A stretch of DNA of 64,000 nt from Candidatus Poribacteria bacterium. GTDB taxonomy: Bacteria > Poribacteria > WGA-4E > WGA-3G. The notes under the pieces are model-generated. The model ran no database searches. It was given only the letters and a program-made list of their open reading frames with translations, and was not told the origin of the DNA. The stretch lies in contig OY282386.1 of assembly GCA_958295945.1 (NCBI GenBank), positions 806,001 to 870,000 on the forward strand, written 5' to 3'. Position 1 is the first letter of the stretch; each line of letters starts with the position of its first letter. The translations under genes and the position numbers were made by a program. Shown here one piece after another: positions 35,510 to 39,571 of this stretch.

Positions 35510-35773
35510 ATGGCATTTCTTGTCTATGTTCTTAGCCTAGTACTTGACGTTTACATTTTCATCGTATTTGTAAATGTAATACTCTCATGGATAGTATTTG
35601 GAATACAAAATGATATTATACGACAAATCTATTCGTTCACAGGACAACTTGTTGATCCTATTCTACAACCAATCCGAAAACTAATGCAACCAGTGAGTAG
35701 AAATATTGGTGTCGATTTCTCACCGATGGTGTTATTGTTCTTATTATATTTTTTGAAGCAATTATATCACTAA
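35510..35773 (+). CDS. yggT: YggT family membrane protein
   Basis: An 87-aa protein with two hydrophobic segments (LVYVLSLVLDVYIFIVFVNVILSW and MVLLFLLYFLKQL) separated by the conserved VDPILQPIRKLMQPV and IGVDFSPMV. YggT proteins are conserved between proC and cell-division or ileS genes in many bacteria and may act in ion transport or envelope integrity. It lies 17 bp after proC. Confidence 0.9.
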   Translation: MAFLVYVLSLVLDVYIFIVFVNVILSWIVFGIQNDIIRQIYSFTGQLVDPILQPIRKLMQPVSRNIGVDFSPMVLLFLLYFLKQLYH

Positions 35774-35861: not shown

Positions 35862-38426
35862 ATGAAACAGAAAAAGAATTCAAATAAAAACTCAACTGCA
35901 ACTCGGTCTGGTTGCAAATCAATACAAAAGAACGATGTTTCTGCTCCCACGGACAAGGTTCAACACAAATTACGTGAAACTGAAATACGCAAGTTGTGGG
36001 AAAAACGAAAGGTGTACAAGGTTGATGAAAAAACGACGGAGTTGCCAACTTATGTGATTCGTGAAATGCCGACACCAGTTCATAGACTAAATGCAGATAC
36101 GCTACGAAGAAAGATTTATCAAGATGTATTCCTAAAGTACGAAACGATGCAAGGACATACAGTTGCTTATGCACCACTTTGGGAAACTTTCCCGTTTAGC
36201 ATTGAAGCAAGTGTGATTAGAGAGAATAATACAGATTCATCAGGCAATATAATCAGTTTTAGAAAAAAGTGCCGTCAATTATATAGTGAGAGTCTAAAAT
36301 TACAACAACACAAGTTAAAAAATCTAGGTATTTTTGCAGATTGGAGTTCTGCTGACAAAACTTTGGAGGCACGTTACGAAACTAAACTATTCAGTTTCTT
36401 TGATAGACTAAGGGATTCAAAATATCTGCAAGATGAACTTAAACTCAGTCATTGGTGTCCCAATTGTGTCTCTCCATTAGAACCAGGCCAGACAGTTACA
36501 CCTGTTTCTACAAATGTCTTATATACTTATGTCAAATTCCCATTCAACGCTGGTTTTGAAGAGTTTGGTAGAGAAATATATTTTGCCATACGATTTCCTA
36601 TGAATCAATTATGGGAGATTGCAGGCACTATAGGTATTGGCATTTATGAAAACACTCAATTTTGTCTGACTGAGTTTGATAACCATTATCTCATCTTTGC
36701 AGAACCACAACTGAAGCAATTTGTAAAACCAAATTCTAAAGAAAAGACTGTTCCCAAACTTATTGCCAAATTAAATGCAAAACAACTCAATAATTGCACT
36801 CTTTCACACCCACTATTTTCACTGACTGACCTTCCGTTTTTTATAATACCAGAGGAAATTATTGAAAACGTATCTGATCCATCAGAAATAAGAAAACTAA
36901 AAGATGGCATCATTCCACTTAATCCTGCACATCATACGCTGAGTCATAACATTTTTAATGTATTACCAAATATTCGTAACGCGATTGATGCCAAGTTTTT
37001 ATCATCTACATCAACAACACCTATATTTGATGAAACGGGTAGGTTTACAGAAGATGCGGATTCTCTATGTGGTTTATACCTACACAACGCAATACATTTT
37101 ATTACAGATGAGTTGGAAAGTCGTCAATGCTTGATTACAGAACGAAAACGGAAGATTGAGAATCTTGAATGTCAACATTGCAACGGGATATCTGTTCTAC
37201 GCCCTTTCCGTCATTGGACCTTTACCACATCCTCTGTAGGTGTTTCTGACGAAATTACTACAACTCCAGAATATTGGGAACACTATGATGAGTATATCCG
37301 TAATGACATTAAAGATGAAATGATGAGTGTATCCGATATGCAAATATCATCGCAGAGACAGTGGGGGATTCCTCTACCTGTGCTAAGATGTGACAACTGC
37401 AATCACCTTATCACTGATAAAAAAATACTTCGGACAGTTCGAAGTTCAATTAGACGAGGATCTGAACATTGGTTCCGACTTAGTGTTGAAGAGCTGTTAC
37501 CTACAGATGCAACCTGTATGAACTGTCAATCTAAGGATTTTCGGAAAGAGTCAACATACATAGAGAGTTATTTTGCTAACTTGCTTCAAACACTTGACAT
37601 ATCAGACTTTAAGAAATCCACTCTTGAGACCACTAACAATATTGCATTTGTACCAAGAACGCCATTTATAAAGTGGTTAGGTGAATTGAGTGTGTTGGCT
37701 GTATCGCTTCAACTCAGCAGACCTTCTAAAGAGAGTCACCCATTTAAACACTTAAAACTAAATGAAATTGATGAAGTAGTATGGGAAACTGAAATTCAAG
37801 ACAGTATATTAGAGAAATATCCAGCCGATATAATCAGATTATTATCAATTTCTCCTGATATACACCAAATTCCTCTGGAAAACGCAGCAATAGAACAACT
37901 TGAAACATTACTAGAAAAACACTATCATAATTATGAAGCTCTAAAAGAGACATTCAATCAGGTTGTGGAGATATTATCTGGTTTTAAGAAGACTGCAAAG
38001 AAAAATCAGCAAACATTTTTAAATGAAAGCAATGGAAAGGACTATGACAAACTTCAGAAACATGATACACTTGCTATATTGATAACACATCAACTCTTAG
38101 TACATCTTCAAGAGGTATATGAAAAGAATGATTTTTACAAGATGTGGGTATTGATGTTTGAATTTTGTCAATCAGAATTGACTTTTTACCTAAATCTATG
38201 TAAAACAGACAAATCTGATTCTGTATCTATTGCACTTACTTCAATTCTAAAAGCACTACTACAACGGATTGCTCCCATTCTCCCTTACTTAGCTGAAGAG
38301 TTTTACACAGAAGTGTTCTCAACTGAAACAAGCATTTTTGAAGAAAAGTGGTACCACATTCCACTTATTAATGATGAAATTAATATAAATGATGAGTGGG
38401 AATCACTAAAGCAATCTGATAAATAA
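35862..38426 (+). CDS. Isoleucyl-tRNA synthetase-like protein lacking HIGH and KMSKS
   Basis: About 854 aa from Met 35862, aligning by landmarks over the whole length of IleRS. Present: the Rossmann start (YQDVFLKYETMQGHTVAYAPLWETF), HWCPNCVSPLE (zinc Cys), an editing-domain-like part (NPAHHTLSH), ECQHCNG, RQWGIPLPV with CDNC, and an anticodon-binding helical domain ending PILPYLAEEFYTEVF. The HIGH site reads H-R-L-N (74-77), the W-D-C-H-G loop reads W-E-T-F-P, and the KMSKS loop reads V-V-W-E-T-E-I (about 639-645). The segment bearing the usual DQ-x-RGW is shortened. Adenylation activity is therefore very unlikely. It occupies the ileS slot between yggT and lspA, and has about 40 extra residues at the N-terminus. 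Confidence 0.8.
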   Translation: MKQKKNSNKNSTATRSGCKSIQKNDVSAPTDKVQHKLRETEIRKLWEKRKVYKVDEKTTELPTYVIREMPTPVHRLNADTLRRKIYQDVFLKYETMQGHTVAYAPLWETFPFSIEASVIRENNTDSSGNIISFRKKCRQLYSESLKLQQHKLKNLGIFADWSSADKTLEARYETKLFSFFDRLRDSKYLQDELKLSHWCPNCVSPLEPGQTVTPVSTNVLYTYVKFPFNAGFEEFGREIYFAIRFPMNQLWEIAGTIGIGIYENTQFCLTEFDNHYLIFAEPQLKQFVKPNSKEKTVPKLIAKLNAKQLNNCTLSHPLFSLTDLPFFIIPEEIIENVSDPSEIRKLKDGIIPLNPAHHTLSHNIFNVLPNIRNAIDAKFLSSTSTTPIFDETGRFTEDADSLCGLYLHNAIHFITDELESRQCLITERKRKIENLECQHCNGISVLRPFRHWTFTTSSVGVSDEITTTPEYWEHYDEYIRNDIKDEMMSVSDMQISSQRQWGIPLPVLRCDNCNHLITDKKILRTVRSSIRRGSEHWFRLSVEELLPTDATCMNCQSKDFRKESTYIESYFANLLQTLDISDFKKSTLETTNNIAFVPRTPFIKWLGELSVLAVSLQLSRPSKESHPFKHLKLNEIDEVVWETEIQDSILEKYPADIIRLLSISPDIHQIPLENAAIEQLETLLEKHYHNYEALKETFNQVVEILSGFKKTAKKNQQTFLNESNGKDYDKLQKHDTLAILITHQLLVHLQEVYEKNDFYKMWVLMFEFCQSELTFYLNLCKTDKSDSVSIALTSILKALLQRIAPILPYLAEEFYTEVFSTETSIFEEKWYHIPLINDEININDEWESLKQSDK

Positions 38427-38458: not shown

Positions 38459-38947
38459 ATGTCACCAATTCAATACTTTAAGAATATATTTCCATTAATC
38501 ATCGTAGCGATTCCATCATTAGCACTTGACATCATCACCAAACGTATGGTTCAGTTCAACATTCCTAAAGGGAGTGGTATCACAGTAATTGACGGTTTTT
38601 TTAATTTACGACACGATAGAAATACAGGAGCGGCATTCGGCATTTTATCTGACCAACGCACCCTATTGGTGATAATAACAATTGCAGCTTTACTTTTCAT
38701 TGTCATCTATTCGTTTAGATTTAGCCACAGTAGATGGATGCAAGTCTCATTAGGATTTCTTCTTGGTGGTGCAGTAGGAAATTTTATTGATAGAATCTAT
38801 CTGGGAGAAGTGGTTGATTTCCTTCAGTTTGGGATTGAAAGCAAAAGACTTTATTGGCCCACATTTAATGTCGCTGATATATCTGTATGTATCGGTGCTG
38901 GTATGCTTATCGTGTATCTCTTTAAGGTGCAAAACACTGAAAACTGA
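38459..38947 (+). CDS. lspA: Lipoprotein signal peptidase
   Basis: A 162-aa inner-membrane aspartic peptidase that cleaves prolipoprotein signal peptides. Four hydrophobic segments are present. The conserved N-x-G-x-A-F-G site is seen in RHDRNTGAAFGIL. The catalytic Asp pair lies in GGAVGNFIDRIYLGEVVDFLQF and WPTFNVADISVCIG. It follows the IleRS-like gene, as in many genomes where ileS precedes lspA. Confidence 0.97.
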   Translation: MSPIQYFKNIFPLIIVAIPSLALDIITKRMVQFNIPKGSGITVIDGFFNLRHDRNTGAAFGILSDQRTLLVIITIAALLFIVIYSFRFSHSRWMQVSLGFLLGGAVGNFIDRIYLGEVVDFLQFGIESKRLYWPTFNVADISVCIGAGMLIVYLFKVQNTEN

Positions 38948-39013: not shown

Positions 39014-39571
39014 ATGTTCAAATCATGCATTAGGATATTTACAATCTCTATAGTCTGTTTTCTCTTTATTATTCCTCATTTACAAGCTCAAAAACAAGAA
39101 ACGCCTCATGAAGAATATAGTGAAAGTGCTCTTCGCCGTTTTGAAATAGTAACTTTGAGCTCTCTACCTTTCACTGCGGTGCATAGTTATTTGGGGGTTC
39201 GTGGTGTTAAGATGATACAGACAAATAAAATTGCACCAATATTGACTCCGCAGAATTATAGAGTGATGGGTATTAGTGCAGTTTCGCTATCACTTTTCAT
39301 AGGAATATGGGATTGGTTACATACCCGAAATGTTGATAGGTCAGCACCGAGTGTTCCCGGACGAGAGCCTTTAACGCCTCCCACTGAAGAGGAAGTTCCA
39401 CCCGATGGTACGCTTGCAGGTATGCCACGTTTAGGACCTCATGTGAACCTAAGTAACATCTCAACATTTATTGGTCACCCGCATGAATCTTTGACAAGAA
39501 ACCAGCTGAACATGTGGGCAAATGATCCACCAGTAGGCATAGCCATTCCACTGCTTGAAATTCGATTTTAA
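39014..39571 (+). CDS. Exported protein of unknown function
   Basis: A 185-aa protein. It has a signal peptide (IFTISIVCFLFIIPHLQAQ, about residues 8-26), a hydrophobic pair (FEIVTLSSLPFTAVHSYLGV and VMGISAVSLSLFIGIWDWLH), and a Pro/Glu-rich C-terminal tail ending in aromatic-containing IPLLEIRF, which could be an outer membrane-type end. No family was recognised. It sits between lspA and fmt on the same strand. Confidence 0.6.
   Translation: MFKSCIRIFTISIVCFLFIIPHLQAQKQETPHEEYSESALRRFEIVTLSSLPFTAVHSYLGVRGVKMIQTNKIAPILTPQNYRVMGISAVSLSLFIGIWDWLHTRNVDRSAPSVPGREPLTPPTEEEVPPDGTLAGMPRLGPHVNLSNISTFIGHPHESLTRNQLNMWANDPPVGIAIPLLEIRF

Follow-up and report, generated by a model that had tools for sequence, protein, structure and literature searches.

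A pseudo-isoleucyl-tRNA synthetase of IleRS1 descent conserved across the phylum Poribacteria

The gene in the ancestral ileS slot of a Candidatus Poribacteria genome encodes a relative of isoleucyl-tRNA synthetase (IleRS) that is almost certainly a pseudoenzyme. It lies in a 64,000-nucleotide stretch of DNA, hereafter the window. The initial annotation had described this single gene; the analysis reported here extends the description to a phylum-wide family of single origin in the Poribacteria, which are sponge-associated bacteria. We consider it likely that the family represents a conserved pseudoenzyme that arose once and that binds some partner without catalysis.

Results

The window protein is an IleRS relative without the catalytic signatures

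The frame at 35862-38426 on the forward strand is open and undamaged and encodes an IleRS relative of 854 aa. The protein matched the Pfam families tRNA-synt_1 (3e-25) and Anticodon_1 (1e-10), and the top NCBIfam model was TIGR00392 (ileS, 2.4e-48) with a score of 165 bits, below the curated cut-off (621.4) for a functional IleRS. With these matches, the open frame and the missing motifs, the annotation of an IleRS-like pseudoenzyme in the ileS slot was borne out. Sequence comparison with solved structures gave the type-1 IleRS of Priestia megaterium and 1ffy as the best matches. The AlphaFold2 model, built from an alignment of 48 family members only, without canonical IleRS, had a mean pLDDT of 83.9 and a pTM of 0.82. 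It has the class I I/L/V fold with a CP1 insertion and an anticodon bundle, and its top structural matches by Foldseek and VIA-align were IleRS1 enzymes, the closest being 8c9e (Z 25.7, rmsd 8.2 over 743 residues; Foldseek E about 1e-35). The features of the locus are as follows.

35510..35773, + strand: yggT, conserved upstream neighbour (locus comparison)
35862..38426, + strand: pseudo-isoleucyl-tRNA synthetase of IleRS1 descent, 854 aa (Pfam, TIGR00392, AlphaFold2, structure matches)
35862..35966, + strand: Lys/Arg/Ser-rich N-terminal tail, residues 1-35 (pLDDT about 30; present only in f1, the family of the window protein)
36069..36101, + strand: former HIGH region, P70-T80 (P70 retained, HxGH lost)
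36180..36194, + strand: W-E-T-F-P replacing W-D-x-H-G (W107 invariant; H and G gone in 48/48 copies)
36456..36467, + strand: CP1 zinc site, first half, C199xxC202 (invariant or nearly so)
36537..36569, + strand: F226-P-x3-G-x-E-x-x-G236 element (E233 and G236 fixed in the family, not in IleRS1)
36594..36614, + strand: former editing threonine motif, TTTPW in IleRS (W251 alone left)
37170-37181, + strand: CP1 zinc site, second half, C437xxC440 (invariant or nearly so)
37389..37526, + strand: CP3 zinc module, C510xxC513...RRGxxxWFxL...C552xxC555 (stretch of highest conservation, holding the gained R527, R531 and R532)
37563..37583, + strand: E-S-Y-F-A-N-L replacing D-V-W-F-D-S-G (alignment)
37674..37676, + strand: W605, counterpart of E. 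coli W569, xRGWF (invariant)
37764..37784, + strand: former KMSKS loop, E635-I-D-E-V-V-W641 (unconserved among copies)
38085..38369, + strand: anticodon-binding helical bundle (Pfam Anticodon_1; the YRKIRNT helix signature before the bundle and the C-terminal zinc domain are gone)
38459..38947, + strand: lspA, conserved downstream neighbour (locus comparison)

Intact HIGH, WDxHG, DVWFDSG and KMSKS motifs were found in none of the 48 aligned copies, and the window protein lacks all four; the HxGH (or GxHH) and KMSKS signatures were likewise scored 0/48. The three replacement strings read in the initial annotation, HRLN at 36081-36092, WETFP at 36180-36194 and VVWETEI near 37776, are present as claimed. 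The absence of HIGH and KMSKS thus stands, but their placement was off by a few residues: the IleRS alignment puts the HIGH columns on N77-A-D-T80 and the KMSKS columns on E635-I-D-E-V639, and no HxGH or K-S-K occurs either way. DVWFDSG is lost in all or nearly all copies except for the F and a partly retained first D. The editing-domain region had been noted as kept, and the CP1 domain is indeed there, but its catalytic residues are not. The T241-T243 triad is retained in 0/48 copies, and H333 and D342 are lost in 41/48 (85%) and 35/48 (73%), respectively. The alignments therefore indicate that both the synthetic and the editing site are without their catalytic residues.

The losses extend to tRNA recognition. 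The YRKIRNT helix, its Y excepted, is gone in all or nearly all copies. The zinc domain at the C-terminus of IleRS1 (about 801-938 in E. coli) is missing from the family, with a gap fraction of 0.91, so that the claim of a whole scaffold goes too far. Without the anticodon-helix signature and the C-terminal domain, the protein is unlikely to recognise tRNA(Ile) in the canonical way, and the earlier suggestion of tRNA binding is not supported for binding of this kind. A set of 21 canonical IleRS1 defined 351 columns with at least 95% identity; of these, 65 are retained in the family (kept in at least 80% of copies) and 224 are lost (kept in less than 20%).

As a control, 59 IleRS-like matches from 59 non-Poribacteria families spanning the bacterial domain were scored, each motif only where the sequence covers that stretch. 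All covered stretches keep the motifs, namely HxG plus H, T or Q, (W/F/Y)DxHG, a VWFDSG-like and a KMSKS-like motif, and TTT. Within this 59-family sample, the motif loss thus appears specific to Poribacteria.

The family descends from IleRS1 and keeps its gene slot

In a 48-sequence tree (LG+C20, SH-aLRT support), the pseudo-IleRS clade received a support of 100, its grouping with IleRS1 99, and IleRS2 100. The tree of IleRS including the window protein, as had been proposed, hence yields one pseudo-IleRS clade that goes with IleRS1. In a 69-sequence tree this clade (100) branched from within the IleRS1 radiation, with a stem as long as roughly one change per column, and in a lineage test the pseudo-IleRS family grouped with IleRS1, not with IleRS2 or ValRS (SH-aLRT 99-100). 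The exact sister of the clade is uncertain because of the long branches. These trees are most simply explained if the family arose once from IleRS1, at the base of the phylum or close to it.

The neighbours named earlier, yggS-proC-yggT before the gene and lspA after it, were seen at the locus, and the order yggS-proC-yggT-pseudoIleRS-lspA-orf-fmt-PASTA is essentially invariant within the order. Canonical ileS occupies the same slot before lspA in Bacillus and Peptococcaceae. The window gene is thereby shown to be an IleRS1 descendant still in the ancestral yggT-ileS-lspA slot. An Rfam scan of the window gave no family over threshold, and so no T-box or other known riboswitch. The orf between lspA and fmt (39014-39571 in the window) encodes a short protein of 185 aa that appears to have a signal or anchor segment; it is present in nearly all Poribacteria loci, including those without pseudo-IleRS.

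A profile search, using a profile built from 21 family members, detected pseudo-IleRS in 78 of 85 Poribacteria genomes, with 75 strong and 3 partial matches. Wherever it occurs, the gene occupies the position ahead of lspA. The partial matches (G053, G055 and G061) come from broken contigs; that of G061, which belongs to another class, consists of a C-terminal half, which has the ERCW zinc motif of IleRS1 and neither DVWFDSG nor KMSKS. An assembly or frameshift artefact was ruled out, as the gene is intact in many independent genomes, several of them single-contig. The remaining seven genomes fall into two groups. G036, G039 and G038 have no gene at an intact locus, where yggT adjoins lspA with 184-539 bases between, and these are accordingly real losses in at least two lineages, so the gene is dispensable. 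The other four cannot be judged as losses: the contig of G010 ends just past lspA, and lspA was not found in G050, G059 and G060. The clean absence between yggT and lspA is seen in f2 and G038 (L206, L207, L208), and the yggT-lspA gap of G038 may hold a short unrelated ORF.

The same genomes carry a complete type-2 IleRS

The initial annotation had proposed that ileS was freed by acquisition of another IleRS, an idea that depends on a second enzyme elsewhere in the genome. The search of the source genome (one contig, 5.3 Mb, 95% complete) found one, a complete type-2 IleRS of 1061 aa at C1:2713142-2715658, which is its only other IleRS and carries GVHH, WDTHG, CWFDSG, KMSKS and the editing TTT. 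That the window gene is the sole IleRS of the genome is accordingly rejected. ValRS, LeuRS and MetRS, named by sequence, are also present. An IleRS over the curated cut-off was found in 75/85 Poribacteria genomes, with nearly all frames of about 1000-1190 aa, and all aligned working IleRS of the phylum are type 2. IleRS2 with a GXHH motif is the mupirocin hyper-resistant kind (PMC10485003).

Two variations were observed among these enzymes. In f2 and f4 (L214 of G036, L215 of G044), the apparently only complete IleRS is a very divergent IleRS2 of about 1120-1190 aa, which has GVHH, FDCQG, NPWLDAG and EMHKS/AMHKS for KMSKS and branches deeply from other IleRS2. Genome G015 has two IleRS2-type open frames of 1051 aa and 1047 aa (G015:C84, G015:C74), for which duplication or bin contamination is possible.

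Constraint, retained residues and newly fixed residues

The dN/dS values of the 30 closest pairs, approximate values by the Nei-Gojobori method, were 0.12-0.39, similar to or somewhat above those of lspA, proC and fmt. Close relatives thus show purifying selection rather than stops, and the view that the gene is not simply decaying held. Between G000 and G021, identity was 41% for pseudo-IleRS and 86% for IleRS2; pseudo-IleRS evolves much faster, so that the constraint on it is merely ordinary. Purifying selection together with an intact frame across many species marks a conserved pseudoenzyme.

Across the family, 71 positions are common to pseudo-IleRS and IleRS1, and 30 are fixed in the family yet rare in IleRS1, including E233, G236, A572, P808 and four arginines (R171, R527, R531 and R532). 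Judged from the sequences, the gene is thus maintained under purifying selection of ordinary strength, and the family has acquired new fixed positions. The most conserved stretches include 221-240 and 491-560, the latter being the second zinc module. The alignment across all families proved too variable for a pattern scan, and a narrower alignment sufficed. All 48 copies have P70, D88, W107 and W605. P70 and W605 correspond to P57 and W569 of E. coli, columns which we take to line the isoleucine side-chain pocket, and with this invariance some of the old amino-acid pocket may remain. The charge of the N-terminus differs among families: the first 30 residues have a net charge of +6 in the window protein, +1 to +13 in other f1 members and mostly negative values in other families. 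Families f4 and f5 consist of acidic copies (pI 4.6-5.6) without the basic tail.

Discussion

The old ileS has probably taken a new non-enzymatic job, and a non-catalytic binding role is very likely. We propose that IleRS2 took over the charging of tRNA(Ile) in Poribacteria and that IleRS1, relieved in this way, would have lost catalysis while its zinc-braced core was retained as a non-catalytic binder. The CP3 zinc module with the gained R527, R531 and R532, together with R171 and the FPxxxGxExxG element of CP1, would then contact an anionic partner, most likely RNA (e.g. a structured stem such as the acceptor) or a protein with a part in translation; this contact would serve regulation or scaffolding. 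The arginines gained in the family and the basic tail of f1 point towards an anionic partner, for instance RNA, whereas the acidic f4 and f5 copies without a basic tail weaken a general RNA-binding role; a general tRNA/RNA-binding or regulatory role may still apply, and RNA itself as the binding partner is possible but rather doubtful. Our fuller proposal is tentative: after replacement by IleRS2, the ancestral IleRS of the whole phylum could have become a dedicated regulator, non-catalytic and equipped with a new binding surface, and would be the first pseudoenzyme known in the IleRS1 line. With equal reserve, its regulated target could be RNA, translation or the branched-chain amino-acid state.

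The invariance of P70, W605, W107 and D88 would also suit a regulator in which the old pocket binds a branched-chain amino acid or a related small ligand and allosterically controls a partner protein, as does HisZ, a HisRS paralogue without adenylation (PMC9437257). We regard this as unlikely, since most copies carry H, R or Y where the E. coli enzyme has its third pocket tryptophan, W534, the Asp position of WDxHG varies among E, N and D, and the adjacent genes are ordinary ancestral neighbours with no biosynthetic partner gene among them. Pairing of an inactive with an active synthetase is known in principle from the trypanosome TyrRS pseudo-dimer (PMC9437257), and pseudo-IleRS might be a structural partner of the working IleRS2, such as a heteromeric stabiliser. 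This is improbable: most members of f4 keep the dead IleRS1 in spite of their very divergent IleRS2 (L215: GVHH, FDCQG, AMHKS), which speaks against obligatory pairing with a single IleRS2.

Unconventional catalysis, as an active synthetase or aminoacyl-transferase, is suggested by the IleRS paralogue SbzA. This protein has a new chemistry, the transfer of Ile from Ile-tRNA to altemicidin, and keeps HIGH and KMSKS with slight changes (PMC6331615). Pseudo-IleRS has neither motif, its KMSKS region is unconserved among copies and no biosynthetic cluster surrounds its locus, so that such activity is very improbable. A slowly decaying relic without function would explain the fast evolution relative to IleRS2 and the complete loss in two lineages, but we give this very little credence, because the frame is open in almost all of the 78 genomes and in several families, dN/dS is like that of the neighbours, and 30 positions are newly fixed. 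Editing in trans had been proposed at the outset, and clearing of Val-tRNA(Ile) would agree with a CP1 domain that is present and well modelled. The loss of the editing-site threonines, the His and mostly the Asp makes it next to incredible, IleRS2 retains its own editing residues, and the proposal is largely refuted by sequence.

Among known systems, IleRS1 encoded beside lspA shares with pseudo-IleRS its descent, the gene slot, the Rossmann/CP1/CP3/anticodon architecture and the zinc cysteines, and differs in having HIGH, WDxHG, DVWFDSG, KMSKS, the editing residues and the C-terminal zinc domain. SbzA, of SB-203208 biosynthesis, is likewise a paralogue beside a working IleRS, but has HIGH/KMSKS and a biosynthetic cluster. 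HisZ and similar non-synthetases also keep an uncharging synthetase scaffold for another task; HisZ, however, is class II with HisRS as parent and HisG as partner, whereas pseudo-IleRS is class I, from IleRS1, with a putative partner. LeuRS-I of Sulfolobaceae is a class I I/L/V-type paralogue unable to charge tRNA, but it makes leucyl-adenylate and binds tRNA(Leu) (PMC9437257), while pseudo-IleRS is without the adenylation residues.

Non-synthetases derived from aminoacyl-tRNA synthetases are already known as a class, and the IleRS1-derived case is new in the open-access literature searched. In that literature nothing relevant was found on an IleRS1-derived pseudoenzyme or on Poribacteria with a tRNA synthetase, and a description elsewhere is possible. 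A 2022 review of duplicated synthetases lists for IleRS only IleRS2 and SbzA (PMC9437257). One phylum here displays the full course in which a core translation enzyme is replaced and the old enzyme is retained as a pseudoenzyme, with replacement, operon slot, losses and residual constraint all visible. Domain-based annotation would label pseudo-IleRS as a tRNA ligase, which would mislead metabolic models of sponge symbionts.

In the survey of 379 IleRS by Brkic et al. (2023), HXGH occurred in all IleRS1 and none had a non-canonical motif; a GXHH swap abolishes IleRS1 activity (PMC10485003), which we count in favour of a dead enzyme. Unlike the IleRS1 of that survey, the pseudo-IleRS family is, by its aligned sequences, an IleRS1 branch without any HXGH-type motif. 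Separately, over a third of our control IleRS covering the HIGH site (set L253-L311; e.g. L253, L255 and L258) have HxGT or HxGQ rather than HxGH, in contrast with the published survey.
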